From contig NZ_VNWN01000004.1 of the NCBI RefSeq assembly GCF_012720115.1, positions 620,001-684,000 on the forward strand: DNA of 64,000 bases. Direction: 5' to 3'. This document shows positions 4,793-23,446 of this stretch, one piece after another. The first letter of the stretch is position 1; each line of letters begins with the position of its first letter. The notes below the pieces were generated by a model that was not told where the DNA came from, ran no database searches, and was given only the letters and a program-made list of their open reading frames with translations. This stretch comes from Sneathiella chinensis (lineage in GTDB: Bacteria; Pseudomonadota; Alphaproteobacteria; Sneathiellales; Sneathiellaceae). A program made the translations under genes and the position numbers.

Positions 4793-5638
4793 ATGGGAGA
4801 TTATTATCGGCCTGCCGTGCTTTCCGATCTGTTACAGCGATTGGAGGCGGGTAATGCAGCCATTCTGGCCGGAGGGACGGATTTTTATCCGGCCCGGGTC
4901 GGTCGGCATCCGCATGAAAATATCATCGATATCACCGCCGTTCAGGCCTTGAAGGGCATTCGCGAAACGGCAGATGGCTGGACCATTGGCGCGGCCACCA
5001 CATGGGCCGATGTGACAGCGGCGGAACTGCCCCCGCTGTTTGATGGGTTGAGAGCGGCGGCGCGGGAAGTGGGCGGACGGCAGATACAGAATGCCGGCAC
5101 CATTGGCGGCAATGTGTGCAACGCATCCCCCGCAGCGGACGGGATGCCCGCGCTTCTCAGTCTTGATGCGGAGGTGGAGATACAGGTGCGACGGGGCTGC
5201 CACAGGATGCCGGTTCGGGATTTTGTTCTTGGAAACCGGAAAACGCAGCTTGAGGCAGGCGAAATTGTTACCGCCTTTCATTTTCCGCGCCGCGATCCGC
5301 AGCGATCAAAGGGCAGTTTCCTGAAACTGGGGGCGCGGCGCTATCTTGTGATCTCGCTGGTGATGGTTGCGGGAAGTGTCGAATGGGACAGCGACCGGAT
5401 CATCACATCCTGCCGCATTGCCGTGGGCGCCTGTTCCGAAGTGGCGGAACGTCTGGCGGCGCTTGAAAATCGTCTGATCGGCCAGAAACTGTCTGGCGGG
5501 CTTGAGGCACTGGTCGGGGATGACTGCCTTGCCGGGCTTGCCCCGATTGATGATGTGCGCGCCACGGCAGCCTATCGGCAGGAAGCCGCGGGGGTGCTTC
5601 TGCGCCGCCTGATCCGGGAATGGGGAGAAATGGCATGA
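4793..5638 (+). CDS. Molybdenum hydroxylase FAD-binding subunit (xanthine dehydrogenase family)
   Basis: The FAD subunit of a xanthine dehydrogenase-type molybdoenzyme, 281 residues like CoxM/NdhF proteins. The two FAD-binding loops are AGGTDFYP at residues 26-33 and TIGGNVCNASPAAD near 103-116. It passes electrons from the iron-sulfur centres to an acceptor. Start ATG 4793 has an AGAGG ribosome binding site. The stop overlaps the start of the catalytic subunit gene (ATGA), so the two are translationally coupled. Downstream ring-reductase and lactamase genes suggest the substrate is an N-heteroaromatic acid such as nicotinate rather than xanthine; that is inference. Confidence 0.9.
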   Translation: MGDYYRPAVLSDLLQRLEAGNAAILAGGTDFYPARVGRHPHENIIDITAVQALKGIRETADGWTIGAATTWADVTAAELPPLFDGLRAAAREVGGRQIQNAGTIGGNVCNASPAADGMPALLSLDAEVEIQVRRGCHRMPVRDFVLGNRKTQLEAGEIVTAFHFPRRDPQRSKGSFLKLGARRYLVISLVMVAGSVEWDSDRIITSCRIAVGACSEVAERLAALENRLIGQKLSGGLEALVGDDCLAGLAPIDDVRATAAYRQEAAGVLLRRLIREWGEMA

Positions 5639-8376
5639 CATCCACGATTTCTTTCAAGGTGAACGGGGCCAGGGCCCGTGTCGATGTCTCCCCGGTGAAG
5701 CGGTTGTCTGATGTGCTGCGGGATGATCTGGGACTGACCGGAACCAAGGTGGGGTGCAATGCCGGGGATTGCGGGGCCTGTACGGTTCTGCTGGATGGGG
5801 AGCAGGTCTGTTCCTGCCTGACAGCCGCGGGACAGGTGGAAGGGCGCAGCGTCACCACGGTTGAAGGGTTGGCCCCGACCGGTGTTCTGAATGATTTGCA
5901 GGCGTCCTTCAAGCGCCATGGTGCGGCCCAATGTGGGATTTGTTCGCCCGGAATGCTGATGGCGGCGAGCAGCCTGTTAAGCCGCTGTTCATCCCCGACC
6001 CGGACACAGGTGGAGGATGCCCTTGGCGGGGTTCTGTGCCGTTGCACCGGATATCAGAAGATCGTCGAGGCGGTGATGGATGCAGGCGGGCAGGGCGAGG
6101 CGTTGACGTGCCCTGGGGCGGGCGCGGCGGTTGGCGCGCCCTTGGCCAAGCTGGACGCCGACCCGAAATTGACAGGGGCTGAAAAATACGGCGCGGACAG
6201 CATTCCGAAGGATGCCTTGTGGGTGCGGATTTTCAGGTCCCCCCACGCCTTCGCCCATGTCCGGTTGGGTGATTTTGGTGATCTTGTCGCCGCGACTGAC
6301 GGGCTTGAGGATATTCTGACCCATGAAGATATTCCGTTTAACCGGTTTGGAATTTATCCGGTCGGCAAGGACCAACCGGTCCTGACAGAAGGGCTGGTCC
6401 GGTACCGGGGGGATGCGCTGGTGGCGGCGGTGGGAACCCGGCAGGCGGTTCAGTCCCTGCAACTGGCAGACCTTCCCGTCACGTTCGAGGCCATGCCGCC
6501 GCTCACCGGGGTGGCAGAGGCAAAAGCCAGTGACGCTTTCCAACTGCACGAGGACAAACCGGGGAACATTCTGATTGAGGGCGCGGTTCGAAAGGGAGAG
6601 GCAAAAGCGGCCTTTGAGAGCGCAGCAGCCCGGTCGGAAGGAGCCTTCACGACCCATTTCGTGGAACATGCCTATATCGAGCCGGAAGCCGGATGGGCGC
6701 GCCCCGTGGGAGACCGGGTCGAGGTTCATGTCACCACACAGGCGGTGCATATGGACCGGGACGAAATTGCCAGCGTTCTGCAAATTCCAAAGGATCGGGT
6801 TCGGGTGATCCCGACCGCCTGCGGCGGCGGCTTTGGCGGCAAGCTGGATGTGTCGGTACAGCCCATTCTGGCGGTGGCGGCGATGAAATACGGGCGGGCG
6901 GTGGCCTGCGTGTATGAACGGCCTGACAGCATGGCATCCAGCACCAAGCGGCACCCGTCTGAAATTACCTGTCGTTTTGCCGCCGATGAACAGGGGCTGC
7001 TGGTGTCCAGTGAACTGATTGCAGATTTTAATACGGGGGCCTATGCGTCGTGGGGGCCGACGGTGGCGGGGCGCGTCCCAGTGCATGGAAGCGGGCCGTA
7101 TTTCGTGCCGAACGTCCATAATATCGGGCGCGGGGTTTTTACCAATGGACCGCCCGCCGGGGCTTTTCGCGGCTTCGGCGTGCCACAGGCGGCCATCGCC
7201 CATGAATGTATGATGGATGATCTTGCAGAACAACTGACCCTTGACCGGTTGGAAATCCGGCTGCGAAATGCCTTGCGGCCGGGCCAGCCAACGGCGACCG
7301 GACAGGTTCTGACCCACAGCGCAGGCATGGCTCCCTGTCTGGAAGCCCTGAAAGAACCGTGGGCGGAATTGAACCGGCAGGCGGATGGGTTCAACAGGGC
7401 ATCATCGGGAAGCCTGCGGCAAGGGGTGGGCATCGGTGCCATGTGGTACGGGATCGGCAATACGGCCCTGTCCAACCCGTCCACCATGGAAGTGGGAATT
7501 GATCCCGGAGGCCAGATTGTCTTTTTCAACGGCGCGGTGGATATCGGGCAGGGGTCAAACACCATTCTGGCCCAGATTTGCGCCGATGCGGCGGGACTGC
7601 CGGTTGAGGCCTTTACCTATATCATGGGGGACAGCGACCTGACGGAAGATGCCGGAAAAACATCGGCATCGCGCCAGACATTTGTTTCAGGCAAGGCGGC
7701 GGAACAGGCCGGGCAGGATTTGCGACTGTCCATCCTGCGGCATGTGAATGCGGGCGAGGGCGCGCGGATCACTTTGTTGCCCGGCTGTCTGGTGGTTGAG
7801 GATGACAGCGCCCGTCACGAAATCCATCTGGAAGACCTTCCCCGGCAGGACAAGGGTATGGTGTTCATGGGGCGGGGCAATTTCGATCCGCCGACCCGTC
7901 CCCTTGATGAAAACGGGCAAGGGGACCCGTATGCTACCTACGGGTTTGCCGCGCAGATTGCGCTGGTTGAGGTGGATACGGACCTTGGAACCACCCGCGT
8001 GCGCAAGATTGTTGCCGCCCATGATGTGGGCCGGGCCATCAATCCGCAACAGGTGGAAGGACAGATTCATGGGGGCATTGCCCAAGGGATGGGCCTTGCC
8101 CTGATGGAGGAATATGTCCCCGGCGTGACCGAGAACCTGCATGATTACCTGATCCCCACCTTTGGCGATATGCCGGCTATGGAGGTGATCATTGTCGAGG
8201 ATGAGGAACCGCTGGGCCCCTATGGTGCCAAGGGGGTTGGCGAGCCGGGACTGGTCCCGACCGCCCCCGCCATCTTTGGGGCGGTGCGTCACGCCACCGG
8301 GGTTCGGGTGACCGAGGCCCCCTTGCTGCCCCACAAATTGAAAGCCGCCCTGACCAATCAAGAGGCCCGAAAATGA
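5635..8376 (+). CDS. Molybdenum hydroxylase, fused 2Fe-2S and molybdopterin subunits
   Basis: A 913-residue fusion of the small iron-sulfur subunit and the large Mo subunit, which are usually separate in three-subunit hydroxylases. Residues ~1-150 hold both 2Fe-2S sites: Cys41, 46, 49 and 59 (plant ferredoxin type) and Cys100, 103, 135 and 137. From ~165 on it is a CoxL/XdhB-type Mo domain with GGGFGGK (near 395) and AGAFRGFGVPQ. The expected catalytic glutamate is in KGVGEPG near residue 870. I start at ATG 5635 because it overlaps the upstream stop and has GGGGAG 7 bases before it. In context it probably hydroxylates nicotinate or a related pyridine next to the ring nitrogen. Confidence 0.9.
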   Translation: MTSTISFKVNGARARVDVSPVKRLSDVLRDDLGLTGTKVGCNAGDCGACTVLLDGEQVCSCLTAAGQVEGRSVTTVEGLAPTGVLNDLQASFKRHGAAQCGICSPGMLMAASSLLSRCSSPTRTQVEDALGGVLCRCTGYQKIVEAVMDAGGQGEALTCPGAGAAVGAPLAKLDADPKLTGAEKYGADSIPKDALWVRIFRSPHAFAHVRLGDFGDLVAATDGLEDILTHEDIPFNRFGIYPVGKDQPVLTEGLVRYRGDALVAAVGTRQAVQSLQLADLPVTFEAMPPLTGVAEAKASDAFQLHEDKPGNILIEGAVRKGEAKAAFESAAARSEGAFTTHFVEHAYIEPEAGWARPVGDRVEVHVTTQAVHMDRDEIASVLQIPKDRVRVIPTACGGGFGGKLDVSVQPILAVAAMKYGRAVACVYERPDSMASSTKRHPSEITCRFAADEQGLLVSSELIADFNTGAYASWGPTVAGRVPVHGSGPYFVPNVHNIGRGVFTNGPPAGAFRGFGVPQAAIAHECMMDDLAEQLTLDRLEIRLRNALRPGQPTATGQVLTHSAGMAPCLEALKEPWAELNRQADGFNRASSGSLRQGVGIGAMWYGIGNTALSNPSTMEVGIDPGGQIVFFNGAVDIGQGSNTILAQICADAAGLPVEAFTYIMGDSDLTEDAGKTSASRQTFVSGKAAEQAGQDLRLSILRHVNAGEGARITLLPGCLVVEDDSARHEIHLEDLPRQDKGMVFMGRGNFDPPTRPLDENGQGDPYATYGFAAQIALVEVDTDLGTTRVRKIVAAHDVGRAINPQQVEGQIHGGIAQGMGLALMEEYVPGVTENLHDYLIPTFGDMPAMEVIIVEDEEPLGPYGAKGVGEPGLVPTAPAIFGAVRHATGVRVTEAPLLPHKLKAALTNQEARK

Positions 8377-9806
8377 CAGATGAAAGCCCCAAGGACGAAG
8401 GTCTGATCCGCTGTGATGCCTGTCCGGTTCTGTGCCGCATTCGCGAGGGCCGGGCCGGAGCCTGTGACCGGTATGCCAATGTACAGGGGGTGCTGACCCG
8501 TGTTGATCCGCTGCTGGTTCTGGAACAGGCAGACAGATTGGTTCCCTTTGCGGAGGGGGCCGCGTCATGGCAGGGGGATCGGGCGGTGCAGGCGGTGCCG
8601 GTGATCACGGGCGTCGGGTCCGGGACGACCTATCCCGATTACAAGCCCGCGCCGTTTATTGTCGGGGCCAGTGTGAAGGGTGTGGATACGGTCACGGTGG
8701 TGTCTGAAGGCATTTTCAGTTACTGCGGGGTCAAGGTGAAGATCGATACCGACCGGTATGTGGGGCCGGAAAGCGCCGCCGTCTTTGCCGAAGGGGAACA
8801 GGTCGGTCATGTGACAACCGCCGAATATGGCAGCCAGATGCTGTCCCTTGGCGGGGTGCGCCATTTGACGGGCGGGTCCAAGAAAGAGGGGTGGGTCACC
8901 TGCGATACCCTTTTGAATTTGTGCAACAAGAAGGCCGTTGAACTGACCGTGGAGGGCGGCGCCCGGATACTTGTCCAGTCCGGCCAGCCCCCGATCATTG
9001 ACGGCGACCGGGAAGAGCGGATGCGGGTTGGCTGTGGGTCGGCCACCATCGGCATTTTCGCCCGGCAGTGGTTTGGCAAGGTGGATGAGGTGATCGTGGT
9101 GGATGACCATATCACCGGCGTCCTGACCGAGCATCAGGCCGGGCAGTTTCTGGATATGCCCGTGTCGGGGATCAAGGTGCGGGGGCGGCGTTCCACACCG
9201 GGGCGGTATTTTCAGGTGGCGGAGCATGGCGCCGGATGGGGCGGCACCGATATCACCAATCCCCTTGATATCATCGACAGGGTGGACCCGAAAAAGGCTC
9301 GGCCCGGCATGACCCTTTTGATGGTTTCCACCACGGGGCAGGATAGTGCATGGTTCGTTTTGGATGACGATCTGGTGCCGAGGCCGGCCCCCATGCCGGA
9401 TGACATCCGGCAGGTGGTTGACCGGATCGCGGAAAATTGTGAACCGGCGCTTTGTACTGTTCTTTTCATGGCTGGGGCGGGCGGGTCGCTTCGGGCCGGT
9501 GTGACGGAAAACCCGGTTCGCCTGACCCGGTCGGTCAAGGATGCCCTGACCCGTGTGACCTGCGGCGGGGCACCGGTTTATGTCTGGCCCGGCGGCGGGA
9601 TCACGGTGCTGGTGGATGTGGCGGCCATGCCGGACAATTCCTTTGGATATGTGCCAACGCCCGCCCTTGTGGCTCCCATCGAATTTTCCATGAGCCGACA
9701 GGATTATGAGGCGCTGGGCGGCCATATGGACAGCATCATTCCCGTCAGCGAGGTTCTGGGACGGGACCGGATCATCACGCTGACCGGCGCGGACACACGC
9801 CCATGA
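8373..9806 (+). CDS. 6-hydroxynicotinate reductase-like iron-sulfur flavoprotein
   Basis: 477 residues, resembling 6-hydroxynicotinate reductase (Hnr), which reduces 6-hydroxynicotinate to 1,4,5,6-tetrahydro-6-oxonicotinate. The N-terminus has Cys14, 17, 21 and 31 in a CxxCxxxCx9C pattern suited to a 4Fe-4S cluster. Further cysteines occur in SYCGVK, VTCDTLLNLC, RVGCGSA and ALC. The Eubacterium barkeri enzyme is reported to carry covalent flavin, one 2Fe-2S and two 4Fe-4S clusters. I see no standard ApbE flavinylation motif here. It overlaps the genes on both sides by ATGA. Family assignment rests on recognising the sequence; the substrate follows from the neighbouring Mo hydroxylase and nicotinamidase-like genes. 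Confidence 0.78.
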   Translation: MTDESPKDEGLIRCDACPVLCRIREGRAGACDRYANVQGVLTRVDPLLVLEQADRLVPFAEGAASWQGDRAVQAVPVITGVGSGTTYPDYKPAPFIVGASVKGVDTVTVVSEGIFSYCGVKVKIDTDRYVGPESAAVFAEGEQVGHVTTAEYGSQMLSLGGVRHLTGGSKKEGWVTCDTLLNLCNKKAVELTVEGGARILVQSGQPPIIDGDREERMRVGCGSATIGIFARQWFGKVDEVIVVDDHITGVLTEHQAGQFLDMPVSGIKVRGRRSTPGRYFQVAEHGAGWGGTDITNPLDIIDRVDPKKARPGMTLLMVSTTGQDSAWFVLDDDLVPRPAPMPDDIRQVVDRIAENCEPALCTVLFMAGAGGSLRAGVTENPVRLTRSVKDALTRVTCGGAPVYVWPGGGITVLVDVAAMPDNSFGYVPTPALVAPIEFSMSRQDYEALGGHMDSIIPVSEVLGRDRIITLTGADTRP

Positions 9807-10672
9807 CGCAGGCAACCGGCAGACTTCTGGAGGATGGCCGGCGATTGCATCTGCAGCATGGCCCGATTGATATCATCGCCGAAGGGGTGGGCCCGGCCGC
9901 AGTGGTCGAGCAGGCCTATGATCAGGGGATGAGGTTTTTCGGCACAATTCTTGCCGATCTGGTGTCGGTTCTGGAGACTTTGCGAACCCCCATCCGGCCG
10001 GGGCCGGTTCCGGCCCTTGACGGGGTTGCCCGATCCATGTGGCTGGCGGCCCACCGGTTTTCGGACAATACGTTCGTCACCCCCATGGCAGCGGTTGCCG
10101 GGGCGGTCGCCGATGCGGTCAAGCAGGCCATGCTGGCAGGGTGCCCGCTGGAAAAGCTGTATGCCAATAATGGCGGGGATATTGCCCTGCATCTGTCGGG
10201 GGATGCCCTGTTCCGCTCCGGGATTGTCAATGATCCGGATGCGCCGTCCGTGGATGCAACCCTGACGCTGGGGGCTGCGGACGGGGTTGGCGGGATTGCC
10301 ACATCCGGGTGGCGGGGCCGGTCTTTGTCGGCGGGGATTGCCGATGCGGTGACGGTGCTGGCGGATACCGCCGCTCATGCCGATGTGGCCGCAACCCTGA
10401 TTGCCGGTGCGGTAAATGTGGACAGCCCCCGTATTGCCCGGAAACCGGCGCGGCAGGTTCGCGATGAAACCGATCTTGGCGACCTGCCGGTAACGGTGCA
10501 GGTTGATCCGCTCTCGCCAGAGGAAATCAATATGGCCCTTGACGCCGGGGTGCGACGGGCGGAACAGTATATGACGGCGGGGTTGGTGACGGGCGTTTAC
10601 CTGTCCCTGCAAGGAACAACAAGAAACATATCAAACAGGATTATCCAATTGGGGAGAACAGAACATGAGTGA
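9803..10672 (+). CDS. UPF0280 family protein (ApbE-like fold)
   Basis: A 289-residue protein of the UPF0280 family, structurally related to the ApbE flavin transferases. Conserved-looking stretches are MAAVAGAVADAV (near 97-108) and NNGGDIALHL (near 122-131), the latter resembling the ApbE NxGGD nucleotide/metal-binding region. No signal peptide is visible. The start overlaps the end of the 6-hydroxynicotinate reductase-like gene (ATGA) and its own end overlaps the AA_synth gene by 8 bases. Because characterised Hnr has covalent flavin, a maturation role for its neighbour is plausible but untested. Confidence 0.8.
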   Translation: MTQATGRLLEDGRRLHLQHGPIDIIAEGVGPAAVVEQAYDQGMRFFGTILADLVSVLETLRTPIRPGPVPALDGVARSMWLAAHRFSDNTFVTPMAAVAGAVADAVKQAMLAGCPLEKLYANNGGDIALHLSGDALFRSGIVNDPDAPSVDATLTLGAADGVGGIATSGWRGRSLSAGIADAVTVLADTAAHADVAATLIAGAVNVDSPRIARKPARQVRDETDLGDLPVTVQVDPLSPEEINMALDAGVRRAEQYMTAGLVTGVYLSLQGTTRNISNRIIQLGRTEHE

Positions 10673-11252
10673 ACTGGTCAAGGTTCGTAAAATTTCAACA
10701 CAGGTCGAGGAAGTCTATCACGAGGGCGGACCCGTCCGGGCCGAACCGGTGCTGAAGGGATCAATCGTGGCGGTGGTCGAGAACCCGTACGCAGGGCGCT
10801 ATGTGGAGGATATTACCCCGTTTATGGAGGCGTTGAAGCCGCTGGGTCTCAAGCTGGCGAAACAACTGATCGAGGCGCTGGGCGGGGATGCCGAGACTAT
10901 CACCAGCTATGGCAAGGGCGCCATTGTGGGTGAGGACGGCGAAAGTGAACATGGTGCCACCTGGCATGTGGCGGGCGGATATGCCATGCGCGAGGCTCTT
11001 GGCAAGGCCTTGGCGATTGTCCCGTCCTCCAAGAAGGTGGGACATATGGGATCGCGCCTTGAAATCCCGCTGACCCACAAGGATGCGTCTTATGTGCGCA
11101 GTCATTTCGATGCCATGGAAGTAGGCCTTGGGGATAGCCCGCGCCGGGGGGAAATCCTGTTTGCACTGGTCATGACCACAGGCGGGCGGCCTCATGCGCG
11201 CCTCGGCGGTTTGGCGGCGGAGGATATTTCCCAGAATGACGGCCTGAGATAA
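10665..11252 (+). CDS. Amino acid synthesis family protein (AA_synth, DUF1185)
   Basis: 195 residues, recognised as the AA_synth/DUF1185 family from segments such as VVENPYAGRYVED (about 37-49) and PLTHKDASYVRSHFD. The family has structures but no established reaction that I know of, and the name is not informative. It is soluble, without a signal peptide or membrane segment. The start overlaps the UPF0280 stop by 8 bases. Being locked into an operon with a ring reductase and an ATP-dependent lactamase, it may act on a ring-reduced or ring-opened intermediate. I do not assign a reaction. Confidence 0.8.
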   Translation: MSELVKVRKISTQVEEVYHEGGPVRAEPVLKGSIVAVVENPYAGRYVEDITPFMEALKPLGLKLAKQLIEALGGDAETITSYGKGAIVGEDGESEHGATWHVAGGYAMREALGKALAIVPSSKKVGHMGSRLEIPLTHKDASYVRSHFDAMEVGLGDSPRRGEILFALVMTTGGRPHARLGGLAAEDISQNDGLR

Positions 11253-11324: not shown

Positions 11325-13373
11325 ATGACAGGAACAGTAATCGGCGTCGATGTGGGCGGGACCTTCACGGACCTGATTTCGGCGGACCCCGAAACCGGAC
11401 AGGTGGCCGTTAGCAAGGTTCCCACAACCCTCGACAATCAGGCCTTCGGGGTTATCGAGGCCATGCAGGGGGTGGGCGTCGATCTTTCCGACGTGGTGGC
11501 CATCAATCACGGGACCACCACCACCACCAATGCGCTGCTGGAGCGGAAAATCGCCCGGGTGGGACTGGTGACCACCCGGGGCTTTCGCGATGTTCTGGAA
11601 CTTGGCCGCCGGACCCGGCCCCAGCCCTATGGCCTGAAAGGCCGGTTCAAGCCACTGATTTCGCGAGAATACCGCATGGAGGTGCCAGAGCGTATCAATG
11701 CGGATGGCGAAGTTGTCGTCCCGCTGGACGAGGCGGCGCTAAGGGATAAAATTCGCACTCTTGTTGAGATGGGGGCGGAAAGCCTCGTCATTCATTTTCT
11801 GCACAGTTATAAAAATCCCGATCATGAAAAACGGGCGTTGGAGATTGCCCGCGAGATGTGGCCCAACCGGTTTGTGACGGCAGGCCATGAAATCCTGTCC
11901 GAATACCGGGAATATGAGCGCGGCACCACGGCGGCTATCAACGGGGCGATCCGGCCGGTGCTGGATCGCTATATCAACCGGCTTCAGGAAGAACTGACCC
12001 GGGGGGGCTTTGCCCATGATCTTCTGGTCATGCAGGGCAACGGGGGCAGTGTTTCCTCGCGCATTGTGGCGGAAAGTGCGGTCAATACGGTCATGTCGGG
12101 GCCAGCCTCAGGCGTGATGGCGGCGGCGGCCACCTGCCGCGAGGCCGGGATTGACAAGGTCATCACCTACGACATGGGGGGGACCAGTTCCGATGTAGGC
12201 ATGGTTCAGGGCGGCGTTCCGCAGGTGACGGCGGAACTGGATCTTGAATATGGCATGCCGATCCATGTTCCCATGGTGGATGTGCATACCATCGGGGCGG
12301 GCGGGGGGTCCATCGCCTTTGTCAATGAGGCGGGCCTGTTGCAGGTCGGGCCGGAAAGTGCCGGGGCCACGCCAGGGCCGATCTGTTACGGTCGCGGCGG
12401 CACGCAGCCCACCATCACCGATGCCAACCTTGTGCTGGGCCGGTTGGATGCGGAAAAGCTGCTGGCAGTCGATCATCCGGTGTCATTAGAGGATGTCCGC
12501 CGGGCGTTTGAACGCGAGATCGGCCACCATTTCGGCATGACCGCAGAGGAAGTCGCCACGGCAATTCTGCAGGTTGCCAACAACCGGATGGCCGGGGCAA
12601 TCCGTATGGTCAGTCTGTCGCGGGGCCATGATCCGCGGGACTTTGCCCTGTTCGCCTTTGGGGGCGCTGGCCCGTTGCATGGGGGCGCATTGGCGCGGGA
12701 ACTTGGCATTCCGCGTGTGGTGATCCCGGCCCGGCCCGGCATCACCAATGCCCTTGGATGTGTGGTGTCCGACCTCCGGCATGATTTCGTCAATACGGTC
12801 AACACCCCGCTGGCCGCCGTGAAGATCGAGCAGGTGCGCGAGATCATCCGCCAGCAGATCAATGATGGCAAGGCCATGATCGAGCGGGACGGGGTCGCGA
12901 CCCGTGAACTGGTCTATCTGTTTTCCGCCGATATGCAGTTTCAGGGACAAAGCCACATGCTGAGTGTGGAGATCAGTGGCCCGGACGTGACACGGGAGGA
13001 GTTACAGCGACGCTTTGACGAGGTTTACTGGAAACGGTTCGCGGTGGAACTACCGGAAATCAAGGCGGTGCTGGTCAATCTGCATACGGCCGTGATCGGC
13101 AAGCGGGACAGTGTTGATCTGAAAACCCTTGCCGGGACAGCACAGGCGGATCGGCTTGAGGCCGCACAGCGGACAACGCGCCGGGTCATGTTTGCCGGTG
13201 ACTGGTTCGAGACGCCCGTTTTTTGGCGGGAAAAACTGCCGCAAAGCCTGAGTTTGACCGGTCCCGCCATTCTGGAGCAACTGGACACCACCATTGTGAT
13301 CGAGCCGGGTGACCGGGTGACAGCGGATCCTGTCGGCAACCTGATTGTGGAGGTGCATGATGAAAGAGCTTGA
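11325..13373 (+). CDS. Hydantoinase/oxoprolinase subunit A (HyuA-type, ATP-dependent)
   Basis: A 682-residue HyuA/OplA-A subunit. With HyuB it couples ATP hydrolysis to opening of a lactam or cyclic amide ring (hydantoins, 5-oxoproline and related). The actin-like phosphate-binding loop GVDVGGTFTDL is at residues 6-16; MGGTSSDVG near 285 and GAGGGSIA near 325 complete the nucleotide site. GGGAGG precedes ATG 11325. The end overlaps the hyuB start by 14 bases. The operon has no enamidase, so this pair is the best candidate to open the six-membered lactam made by the reductase; that substrate is inferred. Confidence 0.9.
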   Translation: MTGTVIGVDVGGTFTDLISADPETGQVAVSKVPTTLDNQAFGVIEAMQGVGVDLSDVVAINHGTTTTTNALLERKIARVGLVTTRGFRDVLELGRRTRPQPYGLKGRFKPLISREYRMEVPERINADGEVVVPLDEAALRDKIRTLVEMGAESLVIHFLHSYKNPDHEKRALEIAREMWPNRFVTAGHEILSEYREYERGTTAAINGAIRPVLDRYINRLQEELTRGGFAHDLLVMQGNGGSVSSRIVAESAVNTVMSGPASGVMAAAATCREAGIDKVITYDMGGTSSDVGMVQGGVPQVTAELDLEYGMPIHVPMVDVHTIGAGGGSIAFVNEAGLLQVGPESAGATPGPICYGRGGTQPTITDANLVLGRLDAEKLLAVDHPVSLEDVRRAFEREIGHHFGMTAEEVATAILQVANNRMAGAIRMVSLSRGHDPRDFALFAFGGAGPLHGGALARELGIPRVVIPARPGITNALGCVVSDLRHDFVNTVNTPLAAVKIEQVREIIRQQINDGKAMIERDGVATRELVYLFSADMQFQGQSHMLSVEISGPDVTREELQRRFDEVYWKRFAVELPEIKAVLVNLHTAVIGKRDSVDLKTLAGTAQADRLEAAQRTTRRVMFAGDWFETPVFWREKLPQSLSLTGPAILEQLDTTIVIEPGDRVTADPVGNLIVEVHDERA

Positions 13374-15093
13374 TCCCATTACCCTGTCGGTCATCCAGAA
13401 TGGCCTGATCCAGGTCTGCAATGAAATGGATCTGGCCTTTGTGCGCGCGGCCTTCAGCCCGGTTATCTCTGAGGCGCTGGACCGGTCGGACGGGATTTAT
13501 GCCGCCGATACCGGCGAGTTGATCGCGCAAGGGGAACTGGGCCTGCCGATCTTTGTCGGGACCATGCAATTCTCGACGCAGGCGGTGATTGAACGGGCGA
13601 AAGAGGTGCGGCCCGGGGACATCTATATTGTCAACGATCCCTATCTTGGGGGAACGCATCTGATGGATGTGAAGTTCGTCCGCCCGTTTTTCTATAAGGG
13701 GAAATTGTGGGCGTGGCTGGCCAATACAGGGCACTGGCCGGATCTTGGTGGTGCGGTCCCCGGCGGTTTTTCCGCCAATGCCACAGAAGTGGAGCAGGAA
13801 GGATTGCGCCTGCCGCCGGTAAAATTGTTCAAGGAAGGTACGCTGGACGAGGAAATCCTGTCTATCATCCTGTCCAATATCCGGATCGCGGACCAGCGGA
13901 TTGGCGATATCAAGGCGCAGGCCGCGGCGCTCTCCATCGGGGATCAGCGCCTGACCGAACTTCTGGACCGGTATGGCGAGGATGTGGTCACCCGGTCCAT
14001 TCGGGAATTGAAGGTCCGGGCGTCCGAGCAGATGCAGGCCAAGATCGCCGATATTCCCGATGGATGCTATCACGGGGTGGCGTATGTGGATTCCGATGGG
14101 GTTGTGGATGAACCCTTGAAAATCGATATGAAGGTGACTTCAAAGGGGAACCGCTTGCATTTCGACATGTCCGGTTCCAGCGCGCCCTGTATGGGGCCCA
14201 TGAATTCGGTGCTGGCGACGACCAAATCCTCCATCTATCTGGCCATGAAGCATATTTTCCCGGATATCCCCATCAATGCGGGTACGTTTGAACCGCTGGA
14301 TATTGACGATCCCGAGGGAACGTTTCTTTATGCCCGTTATCCCCGGCCCGTGTCGGGATGCGCCGCCGAGGTCAGCCAGCGGATTGCGGAGGCGGTGTTC
14401 AATGCGCTGGTCGATGTGATCCCCGACCTGCTGTTCGCGGCCCCGGCGGGGACATCAGGCAATCTTGCGGTAGGCGGATATGACCCTGAGCGAGAGAAGG
14501 CCTATGTGATGTATGTGATTTCGGGTGGGGGCTATGGGGGCTACCGGGAGGGGGACGGTCTGTCAAACGGCTGTTCCACGATCGGTATTTCCAAGACCAC
14601 ACCCATTGAGGTGATGGAGCAATATTACCCCGTTCTGTTCGAGGAATATTCCCTGCATGAAGGGTCCGGCGGTGCCGGGCGGCAGCGCGGCGGGTTCGGG
14701 GTGAATTACCGGATACGCCTGCGTCGCGGCGAGGCGCGGGCCTCCATGGTTATGGATCATGGCCGGTTTGGCCCGCTGGGGGCACTGGGCGGTGAGGATG
14801 GCGGCACCAACAAGGTGCTGGTGGAGGCCGGCGGTCAGGCGTATGTGCCGCCGCACCTGTCCAAGGATCAGGATATCCAGATCCGGGCCGGGGATTGCAT
14901 TTCCGTATCCACACCGGGCGGCGGCGGTTTTGGTGATCCGTTTGATCGGTCGCCGGACCTTGTGGCCCGCGATGTCCGGCGGGGATATTACACAGCTGAA
15001 CAGGTTCGCGAACGGTTCGGGGTGGTTATTGACCCCGGTACCGGCACTGTGGATGAACTGGAGACCTACCGCCTCAGGACGGCGGCGGAGTAG
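13360..15093 (+). CDS. Hydantoinase subunit B (HyuB-type)
   Basis: The partner subunit of HyuA, 577 residues. Typical features are DPITLSVIQNGL at the N-terminus, VNDPYLGGTHLMDV (near 88-101), and the glycine-rich SPGG-like TPGGGGFGDP near the C-terminus. I chose ATG 13360 because GGAGG at 13349-13353 is 6 bases upstream; the adjacent ATG 13357 is also possible. It is the last gene of the seven-gene operon. Its stop lies 20 bases inside the end of the convergent permease gene, in a strong GC hairpin. Confidence 0.9.
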   Translation: MKELDPITLSVIQNGLIQVCNEMDLAFVRAAFSPVISEALDRSDGIYAADTGELIAQGELGLPIFVGTMQFSTQAVIERAKEVRPGDIYIVNDPYLGGTHLMDVKFVRPFFYKGKLWAWLANTGHWPDLGGAVPGGFSANATEVEQEGLRLPPVKLFKEGTLDEEILSIILSNIRIADQRIGDIKAQAAALSIGDQRLTELLDRYGEDVVTRSIRELKVRASEQMQAKIADIPDGCYHGVAYVDSDGVVDEPLKIDMKVTSKGNRLHFDMSGSSAPCMGPMNSVLATTKSSIYLAMKHIFPDIPINAGTFEPLDIDDPEGTFLYARYPRPVSGCAAEVSQRIAEAVFNALVDVIPDLLFAAPAGTSGNLAVGGYDPEREKAYVMYVISGGGYGGYREGDGLSNGCSTIGISKTTPIEVMEQYYPVLFEEYSLHEGSGGAGRQRGGFGVNYRIRLRRGEARASMVMDHGRFGPLGALGGEDGGTNKVLVEAGGQAYVPPHLSKDQDIQIRAGDCISVSTPGGGGFGDPFDRSPDLVARDVRRGYYTAEQVRERFGVVIDPGTGTVDELETYRLRTAAE

Positions 15094-20615: not shown

Positions 20616-20732
20616 TTATTACCGCTTTTCATACTCCTCACACTCTTGAAACATGACGGGGCTATCCTGACCGGGTAAGGTTGGGGCGTATCCCCCTGAA
20701 AAACGTGCATTTTTGTTGTGAAGGACCACAGT

Positions 20733-21977
20733 ATGTCAAAGACCCCCGCCACAGTCACGGTGAACGACCGGACCTATGCCTGGCCGAAGCAGCCGGTGGT
20801 TGTTGTCTGTATTGATGGCAGTGAACCCGCTTATATCGAGCAGGCCATCAAGGACGGTGTCATGCCCTATATGGAAAAGGCGCTGGCGGGCGGGGCGGAC
20901 CTGCGCGCCGATTGTGTGGTTCCCAGTTTCACCAACCCCAACAACCTGTCCATTGTGACAGGCCAGCCGCCCCGTGTGCACGGAATTTGCGGTAACTACT
21001 TCTATGACGTGGAAAATGACGTCGAGGTCATGATGAATGACCCGAAATTCCTGCGCGTTCCAACAATCTTCAAGGCGTTTTTTGATGAAGGCGCGAAGAT
21101 TGCGGTGGTGACCGCAAAGGACAAGCTGCGGACCCTTCTTGGCAACGGTCTGGATGTCACCAGCGGCCGGGCGATCTGTTTCTCGTCCGAAAAATCCGCA
21201 GAGGCCACGATGGCCGAGAACGGGATTGATAACGCCTCCGAATGGATCGGGCGCGAGGTGCCGTCCGTCTACTCCGCTGAACTGAGCGAGTTTATCTTTG
21301 CCTGCGGGGTCAAGCTGATGGACGAGTTCAAGCCGGACCTGATGTATCTTTCCACAACCGATTATATCCAGCACAAACATGCGCCGGGAACGCCGGTGGC
21401 CAATGAATTTTATGCCATGCTGGATGGGTATCTGGCGGAACTGGAGGCCCGGGGGGCCGTGATCGCCCTGACGGCGGATCATGGTATGAAGCACAAGCAT
21501 ACGGACGCCGGAGAGCCGGACGTGATTTTCCTGCAGGATGTTCTGGATGACTGGCTGGGGCAGGGCGCTGCCCGGGTGATCCTGCCGATCACCGACCCTT
21601 ACGTGGTGCATCACGGGGCGCTGGGGTCTTTTGCAACCGCGTATTTGCCCGAGGAAAACCGCGAGGAAACCATTGCCCGGTTGGCGGCGATGGACGGCAT
21701 CATGGTGGCGCTGGATCGCAAGGCGGGGTGTGAGCGGTTTGAATTGCCGGAGGATCGGACCGGGGATGTCATCATTGTGTCCACGGATCACAAGGTTCTG
21801 GGAACCAGTGCCAGCCGCCATGACCTCAGTGCATTGAAAGAGCCGCTTCGCTCTCATGGTGGGATATCAGAGCAGCGGGTGCCGCTTCTGTGTAACCGTC
21901 CGGTGGATGGAATGGCAACAAGCCGCCCCTTGCGCAATTTCGATATTTTCGATCTGGCGCTGAACTACGCCCAGTAA
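20733..21977 (+). CDS. phnA: Phosphonoacetate hydrolase
   Basis: Cleaves the C-P bond of phosphonoacetate to acetate and phosphate. It is a 414-residue member of the alkaline phosphatase/nucleotide pyrophosphatase superfamily. The nucleophile Thr67 is in [10 protein letters not shown]; metal ligands are in CIDGS (Asp28), TTDYIQHKH and ADHGMKHKH. The sequence and length match the characterised Sinorhizobium enzyme closely. ATG 20733 has AAGGA 7 bases upstream; an in-frame GTG at 20718 is less likely. The phosphonoacetaldehyde dehydrogenase gene follows after 38 bases. Confidence 0.93.
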
Positions 21978-22015
21978 CCGAACCCGTAACAGAACCAGCA
22001 ACAGGAAGGTTCACG

Positions 22016-23446
22016 ATGTCCGTTCAGATACGTGTTGAGGCCATGCGCATTGCGGGAGAGAAAGTCACGACCCCGGATGTAGTAGAGGTGAGAAGCCCCT
22101 ACAACGGGGAGGTTGTTGGCACCATTCCCAAGGGGCAGGTCGCTCATGTGCAGGCGGCGTTTCGCGCCGCTGCTGCCTATCAACCGACCCTCAGCCGTCA
22201 TGAAAGATACGAAATTCTGCAAAAGGCCGCCGATATTCTGGTGGCCCGGAAGGAAGAGATTTCCGACCTGATCACGGCCGAGTCGGGTCTTTGCAAGAAA
22301 GACAGTCTGTACGAAGTGGGCCGTGCCTATGATGTGTTCAGCCTGTCGGCCCGCCTTTGCATCATGGATGACGGGGAGGTTTATTCCTGTGATATCACGC
22401 CCCACGGCAAGAAGCGGAAAATCTTCACGGTTCGGGAGCCGCTGACCGCGATCAGTGCGATCACCCCGTTCAACCATCCGCTCAATCAGGTGGCGCACAA
22501 GGTGGCCCCGTCCATCGCTACAAATAATTGCATGGTCCTGAAGCCTACGGAAAAAACGCCACTGACCGCGTTGTTGCTGGCCGATATTCTATATGATGCC
22601 GGGTTGCCGCCCGCCATGTTCTCGGTTGTGACAGGGGCACCGGAAGACATCGCCGATGAAATGCTGACCAACCCGGATGCGGAACTGGTCACCTTTACCG
22701 GTGGGGTGCCGATCGGCAAGTATATTGCCGAAAAGGCGGGGTATAAACGCAAAGTTCTGGAACTGGGCGGGAACGATCCGCTGATCGTGATGGAGGATGC
22801 GGATCTGGACAAGGCGTCCGATCTGGCCGTCGCGGGTGCGTATAAGAATTCCGGTCAGCGCTGTACGGCGGTCAAGCGTATTCTGGTGGCGGACAGTGTG
22901 GCGGACCGGTTCGTGGACTTGCTGACGGAAAAGACGGCGGTGCTTAAATACGGGAATCCGTTCGATCCTGAAATGGATATGGGTACCGTGATTACCGAGC
23001 AGTCCGCCAAGCTGTTCGAGGCGCGGGTTAATGATGCTGTCGCAAAAGGGGCTGTCCTGAAATATGGAAACAAGCGGGACGGGGCGGTTTACTCCCCCAC
23101 GGTGGTGGATCATGTCCCCTTTGATTGCGATCTGGTGCGCGAGGAAACCTTTGGCCCGGTGGCACCGGTTATTCGCTTTACCGATATTGACGATGCCATC
23201 CGGATTTCAAACTCAACCGCTTTCGGTCTGTCGTCCGGGGTGTGTACGGATAACTGGCCGCATATCCAGCGATTTATCCGGGACCTTCGGGTGGGTACGG
23301 TGAATATCTGGGAAGTGCCCGGATACCGGATCGAGATGTCGCCTTTTGGGGGGATCAAAGATTCCGGGCTCGGATACAAGGAAGGGGTTCTTGAAGCCAT
23401 GAAAAGTTTCACCAACCTGAAAACCTATTCCCTCCCGTGGGAGTGA
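22016..23446 (+). CDS. phnY: Phosphonoacetaldehyde dehydrogenase
   Basis: A 476-residue aldehyde dehydrogenase that oxidises phosphonoacetaldehyde to phosphonoacetate with NAD. The catalytic cysteine is Cys283 in GQRCTAVKR, and the general-base glutamate is in VLELGGNDP near residue 247. The N-terminus and the position behind phnA match rhizobial PhnY. With PhnW and PhnA it completes the route from 2-aminoethylphosphonate to acetate and phosphate. AGGAAGG precedes the ATG. A strong terminator follows. Confidence 0.93.

Follow-up and report, generated by a model that had tools for sequence, protein, structure and literature searches.

UPF0280 proteins as candidate ApbE-derived maturation factors of 6-hydroxynicotinate reductase homologues

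INTRODUCTION

What is the role of a UPF0280 protein that is encoded directly behind a reductase of the nicotinate type? In the window, a 64,000-nucleotide stretch of the Sneathiella chinensis genome, such a gene overlaps the end of a gene for a homologue of 6-hydroxynicotinate reductase (Hnr). The preliminary description of this DNA proposed a dedicated flavin transferase related to ApbE. The window protein is recognized by the NCBIfam model NF003322 (PRK04334 type 2; 323.9 bits versus a cutoff of 290), which is annotated merely as "hypothetical protein," and the term "UPF0280" was not found in a literature search. Purified Hnr of Eubacterium barkeri reportedly contains covalent flavin, one [2Fe-2S] cluster, and two [4Fe-4S] clusters; it is the only Hnr known to have a covalent flavin and to use 6-hydroxynicotinate as a substrate. 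The current analysis asks whether the UPF0280 protein is tied to Hnr, and whether its fold and active site are compatible with a function in flavin attachment.

RESULTS

Organization of the locus

The hnr-like gene, whose product is the proposed client (positions 8373 to 9806; forward strand, as for all features below), encodes 477 amino acids with 43% identity to full-length E. barkeri Hnr. The open reading frame calls bear out the previously described ATGA overlap, in which the start codon of the UPF0280 gene (ATG, 9803 to 9805) lies on the hnr stop codon (TGA, 9804 to 9806). The UPF0280 gene (9803 to 10672; 289 amino acids) belongs to the long, Hnr-type variant and encodes a candidate maturation factor with an ApbE fold; its end overlaps the start of an AA_synth gene (10665 to 11252; PF06684, 237 bits), the usual third gene of the block. 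The upstream pathway context consists of genes for a molybdenum hydroxylase FAD subunit (4793 to 5638; PF00941, PF03450) and a fused [2Fe-2S]/molybdenum hydroxylase subunit (5620 to 8376; PF02738, PF20256, PF01799), a candidate nicotinate hydroxylase whose gene overlaps hnr by 4 bases. Homology and the adjoining molybdenum hydroxylase suggest 6-hydroxynicotinate as the substrate of the window Hnr, and a related N-heterocycle is possible instead.

Downstream, ABC transporter genes are found in addition to AA_synth and two hydantoinase-like genes, namely, a hydantoinase/oxoprolinase A-like gene (11325 to 13373; PF01968, related to the caprolactamase alpha model NF050156) and its partner, a hydantoinase B-like gene (13345 to 15093; PF02538, related to NF050157). 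The two genes (11325 to 15093) adjoin the hnr-UPF0280 pair where other clusters carry an enamidase, and their caprolactamase-related products may open the lactam ring. Further downstream (20718 to 23446), a phosphonoacetate hydrolase-like gene is followed by an aldehyde dehydrogenase gene; judged from their ORF sequences, they probably represent a separate phosphonate cluster.

Four cysteines near the N terminus of Hnr (C14-x2-C17-x3-C21-x9-C31; 8412 to 8465) are conserved to at least 99% in 121 Hnr proteins and are likely Fe-S ligands; the window protein and E. barkeri Hnr have this motif and Cys221 in common. The same N terminus (8400 to 8490) contains a CxxCPxxCxxxxGxxGxCxxRY-like module that resembles the N terminus of AmmeMemoRadiSam-type radical SAM proteins, with weak matches, some of them to ORFs of about 340 amino acids. 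An additional N-terminal 2x[4Fe-4S] domain is present in Hnr of Firmicutes and of locus L075 and is absent from the window Hnr and its proteobacterial relatives. No relative of Hnr was found in the PDB by sequence or by a Foldseek fold search. The Hnr structure model has a mean pLDDT of 71.8, and the structure search returned no match at an E value below 0.07, so that fold comparison does not locate the flavin site. Residues 119 to 154 (8720 to 8840) show a weak likeness to the C-terminal barrel of the glycine cleavage T-protein (Pfam score below the cutoff; Foldseek). The ApbE target motif D-x-x-[ST]-G-A-[ST] is present in none of the 121 Hnr sequences, and its absence, described before for the window reductase, thus extends to the whole set; invariant Ser and Thr residues of Hnr, among them T108, T149, T166, T292, T320, T321, and T429, are candidates for flavin attachment.

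Association of hnr and UPF0280 across genomes

When the E. barkeri enamidase (sequence from PDB 2vun) was used as the query, nicotinate clusters were retrieved from E. barkeri, E. aggregans, Acetobacterium bakii, other Firmicutes, and one deltaproteobacterial metagenome-assembled genome (MAG). In these loci, UPF0280 immediately follows hnr. The Hespellia locus ends at a contig edge, and the other contig carries the tail of hnr followed by UPF0280. In four Firmicutes loci AA_synth is located about 7 kb away, and hnr and UPF0280 are still together. The species in which a covalent flavin has reportedly been found on Hnr accordingly possesses the gene pair. The nicotinate cluster of E. barkeri (hnr, enamidase; locus L066) is like the window in that UPF0280 directly follows hnr; it differs in the extra N-terminal 2x[4Fe-4S] ferredoxin domain of its Hnr, which the window protein lacks, and in the hydantoinase A/B-like genes that the window and some relatives have beside the pair. 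For Azorhizobium caulinodans and Bradyrhizobiaceae, the consulted passages on the nicotinate cluster (PMC3511419) do not propose a link to flavin attachment.

Among 289 genomes of Alphaproteobacteria, Hnr was detected in 44 and UPF0280 in the same 44, one extra marginal UPF0280 match of 19 bits being discounted. In a second phylum, to which the deltaproteobacterial MAG belongs, Hnr and long UPF0280 proteins occur in the same 27 of 148 genomes, so that every Hnr genome of this sample has the long type (Fisher P value, 3e-30, which overstates the case because the genomes are not independent). UPF0280 is located directly 3' of hnr in 30/30 loci of the first search and in 29/29 loci of a phylum-wide search, most of them from Alphaproteobacteria and a few of the latter from genomes that were also in the first sample. 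Their linkage in both genome samples goes far beyond chance, and chance adjacency was rejected as an explanation. The preliminary description had suggested tabulating how often UPF0280 and Hnr genes are neighbors, and the outcome is essentially all-or-none, E. barkeri included.

The association extends to plasmids, where all 26 records with Hnr also encode UPF0280. The sole plasmid UPF0280 gene without Hnr, from Hydrogenophaga (L033:8926-9858), is located directly after IS1071 and is probably the remnant of an hnr-UPF0280 pair. Relatives of the two proteins were not found in the viral contigs scanned. Pairwise distances of Hnr and UPF0280 are correlated (r = 0.91; 74 pairs). The neighboring catabolic genes differ, e.g., enamidase or hydantoinase-like genes and different hydroxylases, and the hnr-UPF0280 pair is constant; in several phyla, AA_synth (PF06684) usually comes third behind the pair. 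Two irregular loci were observed. In genome G028 (C1:2969811-2971201), the hnr match is distributed over two frames beside an intact UPF0280 gene, which reflects a frameshift or a sequencing error, and genome G687 has two Hnr proteins (second hnr gene at C240:6470-7972) and a single long UPF0280 as far as found, which breaks the one-to-one copy number.

Two UPF0280 types and their proposed clients

A second, shorter UPF0280 protein is encoded in A. bakii, one Bacillota MAG, and the deltaproteobacterial MAG, and exactly these three genomes have DUF39 (PF01837); in the remaining six of the nine genomes a single UPF0280 gene is present and DUF39 was not found. The gene order in loci L087 and L088 is DUF39, NIL/ferredoxin, UPF0280, and methionine synthase, the NIL and methionine synthase genes being assigned from their sequences and from PMC5764234. 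In the 148 genomes of the second phylum, DUF39 occurs in 99, the short UPF0280 in 100, and both in 93 (Fisher P value, 4e-23, likewise overstated by the nonindependence of the genomes). DUF39 (PF01837) was found in none of 399 Pseudomonadota genomes, including that of the window. In a tree rooted with ApbE, the DUF39-type clade is fully supported, whereas the long type is recovered only as the remainder, and its monophyly is therefore not claimed.

The short type corresponds to COG2122 (MA1715, DvMF_0044); DUF39-dependent synthesis of homocysteine requires it, as shown by genetics (PMC5764234). This requirement was reported for Desulfovibrio, with a cofitness of 0.98 with DUF39 (PMC5764234), and for M. 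acetivorans at low sulfide (PMC5764234; PMC12068725), and MA1715/COG2122 has been proposed to act in persulfide formation on DUF39 (PMC5764234). The assumption of the preliminary description that the family has no assigned function hence does not hold for this sister clade. COG2122 (structure 2o34, DVU1097) and the Hnr type have the UPF0280 family and fold in common, and both track a client gene, in the case of COG2122 in 93 of the 99 DUF39 genomes. COG2122 differs in forming a separate clade, in its shorter length, in usually having GHS in place of GRS, and in having DUF39 instead of Hnr as its client. A relationship between the two clients was not established: comparison of Hnr with DUF39/COG1900 by hhalign in several modes gave nonsignificant probabilities of <1%, and the best local match (VDxVT...SG) spans the DUF39 Cys region. 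No DUF39 structure was found in the PDB by sequence.

Fold and active site of the UPF0280 protein

The closest PDB chain to the window UPF0280 protein is 2o34 (DVU1097). Its AlphaFold2 model (mean pLDDT, 87.7) retrieved DVU1097 from the PDB by Foldseek (E value, 7e-11), followed exclusively by ApbE, FmnB, and Ftp structures (E values down to 1e-5, probability near 1, TM scores of 0.31 to 0.53) and then noise; the ApbE-like fold put forward previously is thus corroborated. A profile comparison with ApbE (hhalign) gave a probability of 95.7% over residues ~99 to 200 only. An earlier study cited in PMC5764234 likewise found that the homology stops short of the ApbE flavin-binding region. The window protein has no match to the Pfam ApbE model (PF02424), and its E. 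barkeri orthologue scores 29.5 bits against a cutoff of 25.6; several UPF0280 proteins passed this cutoff when the Hnr genomes were searched for ApbE, which supports the homology.

The NNGGD motif (residues 122 to 126; 10166 to 10180), noted before for its likeness to ApbE, is a genuine resemblance, with G124, G125, and D126 being invariant in 81 Hnr-type proteins. Also invariant in this set are Ser168, Arg173, Ser174, Asp194, and Thr198. Ser168 belongs to a TSG motif (10301 to 10309) and aligns with the Ser of the ApbE ATSG motif (Ser241 in Vibrio cholerae), and the ADxxAT motif (10379 to 10396; A193, D194, and T198 all 100% conserved) aligns with the Asp at the Mg site of ApbE (Asp285 in V. 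cholerae). The conserved ApbE residues are Ser241, His257, and Asp285, of which His257 is the general base (PMC12052999). In the Hnr type, this His is missing together with its segment, which corresponds to a gap in the hhalign alignment at the GRS motif (residues 172 to 174; 10316 to 10324; 100% conserved), and the 81 proteins contain neither a conserved His nor a conserved Cys. The former argues against an unchanged ApbE mechanism, so that the straightforward reading of the protein as "an ApbE" is not licensed by the NNGGD likeness, and the latter argues against a Cys-borne sulfur carrier in the Hnr type. In summary of the comparison with the FAD:protein FMN transferases ApbE, Ftp, and FmnB (PF02424), UPF0280 has the fold, the TSG Ser, the Asp of ADxxAT, and a motif of the GGD type in common with them and differs in the lack of the SH[IT]xDP His segment and of an export signal, in a client without D-x-x-[ST]-G-A-[ST], and in the limited range of sequence homology. 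Inspection of the sequence and a simple hydropathy check revealed no export leader on the UPF0280 protein, and Hnr likewise has none.

DISCUSSION

The near-obligate genetic coupling, together with UPF0280 copy numbers that track the clients and a second UPF0280 in DUF39 genomes, makes it very probable that the Hnr-type protein is dedicated to Hnr. It would represent a cytosolic, ApbE-derived maturation factor that serves Hnr alone. It would use a metal and nucleotide site of the ApbE type whose catalysis is altered, with Ser168, Arg173, Ser174, Asp194, and Thr198 invariant and no His base. We infer that the protein acts on Hnr, that this action concerns the flavin, and that a bond is formed; loading or covalent attachment of the Hnr flavin, with a covalent outcome, is the reading that we favor by a modest degree. 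Several points count against a flavin role, namely, the association of the sister clade COG2122 with the metabolism of sulfide and homocysteine, in which a flavin is not known to take part, the absent His, the restriction of ApbE homology to residues ~99 to 200, and the lack of an ApbE target motif in Hnr.

The link of COG2122 to sulfur metabolism leads to the alternative that UPF0280 matures Hnr by sulfur delivery or Fe-S cluster assembly instead of flavin attachment, as proposed for MA1715/COG2122. Both the genetic requirement with its suggested persulfide role (PMC5764234) and the conserved Cys motif of Hnr would fit, but Hnr does not catalyze sulfur transfer, the Hnr-type proteins have no conserved Cys, and they are folded like the flavin transferases; we regard this alternative as unlikely. 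Many covalent flavins form autocatalytically. UPF0280 might accordingly bind FMN, FAD, or another nucleotide and either insert it or associate noncovalently with Hnr as a partner or subunit, and the covalent bond would arise by itself. Retention of the metal-site Asp and the Ser with loss of the general base is in line with such a role, but the ApbE fold is known for phosphoester flavin bonds, and this proposal is considered just as improbable as sulfur delivery.

The location of UPF0280 in a nicotinate-type cluster, where AA_synth is a similarly frequent neighbor, could also indicate one more enzyme of nicotinate breakdown that is tied to the pathway and not to the client. However, the pair stays together while the catabolic neighbors vary, and the second UPF0280 goes with DUF39 of an unrelated pathway, which leaves this explanation with very little plausibility. 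Finally, a canonical ApbE might flavinylate Hnr while UPF0280 has another role, and the genome of the window does encode one canonical ApbE. This protein has an RRSF export-type (Tat-like) leader, the ApbE target motif is missing from Hnr, and a search of 78 Hnr genomes failed to find canonical ApbE in 34, among them single-contig genomes and 15 alphaproteobacterial genomes that are at least 98% complete. Its distribution and leader make ApbE an unlikely substitute for UPF0280, and it was rejected as the Hnr flavinylator; we give this explanation almost no credence.

With respect to flavin attachment by the Hnr-type protein, a wider version can be formulated, according to which the UPF0280 proteins make up a cytosolic branch of the flavin transferase superfamily in which each client has its own type, one flavinylating Hnr and the other the DUF39 aspartate-semialdehyde sulfurtransferase. 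This version is tentative and rather doubtful. If true, the DUF39 enzymes would be unrecognized covalent flavoproteins, as might be MMP16, a related coenzyme M synthase, and transfer would proceed by a His-free chemistry at a new attachment site. Flavin attachment by UPF0280 would give a biochemical task to a family that is known solely from genetics and would explain how a cytosolic Fe-S reductase acquires a covalent flavin where canonical ApbE is lacking. It would also predict which redox cofactor is missing from the DUF39 pathway of homocysteine synthesis in methanogens and sulfate reducers.
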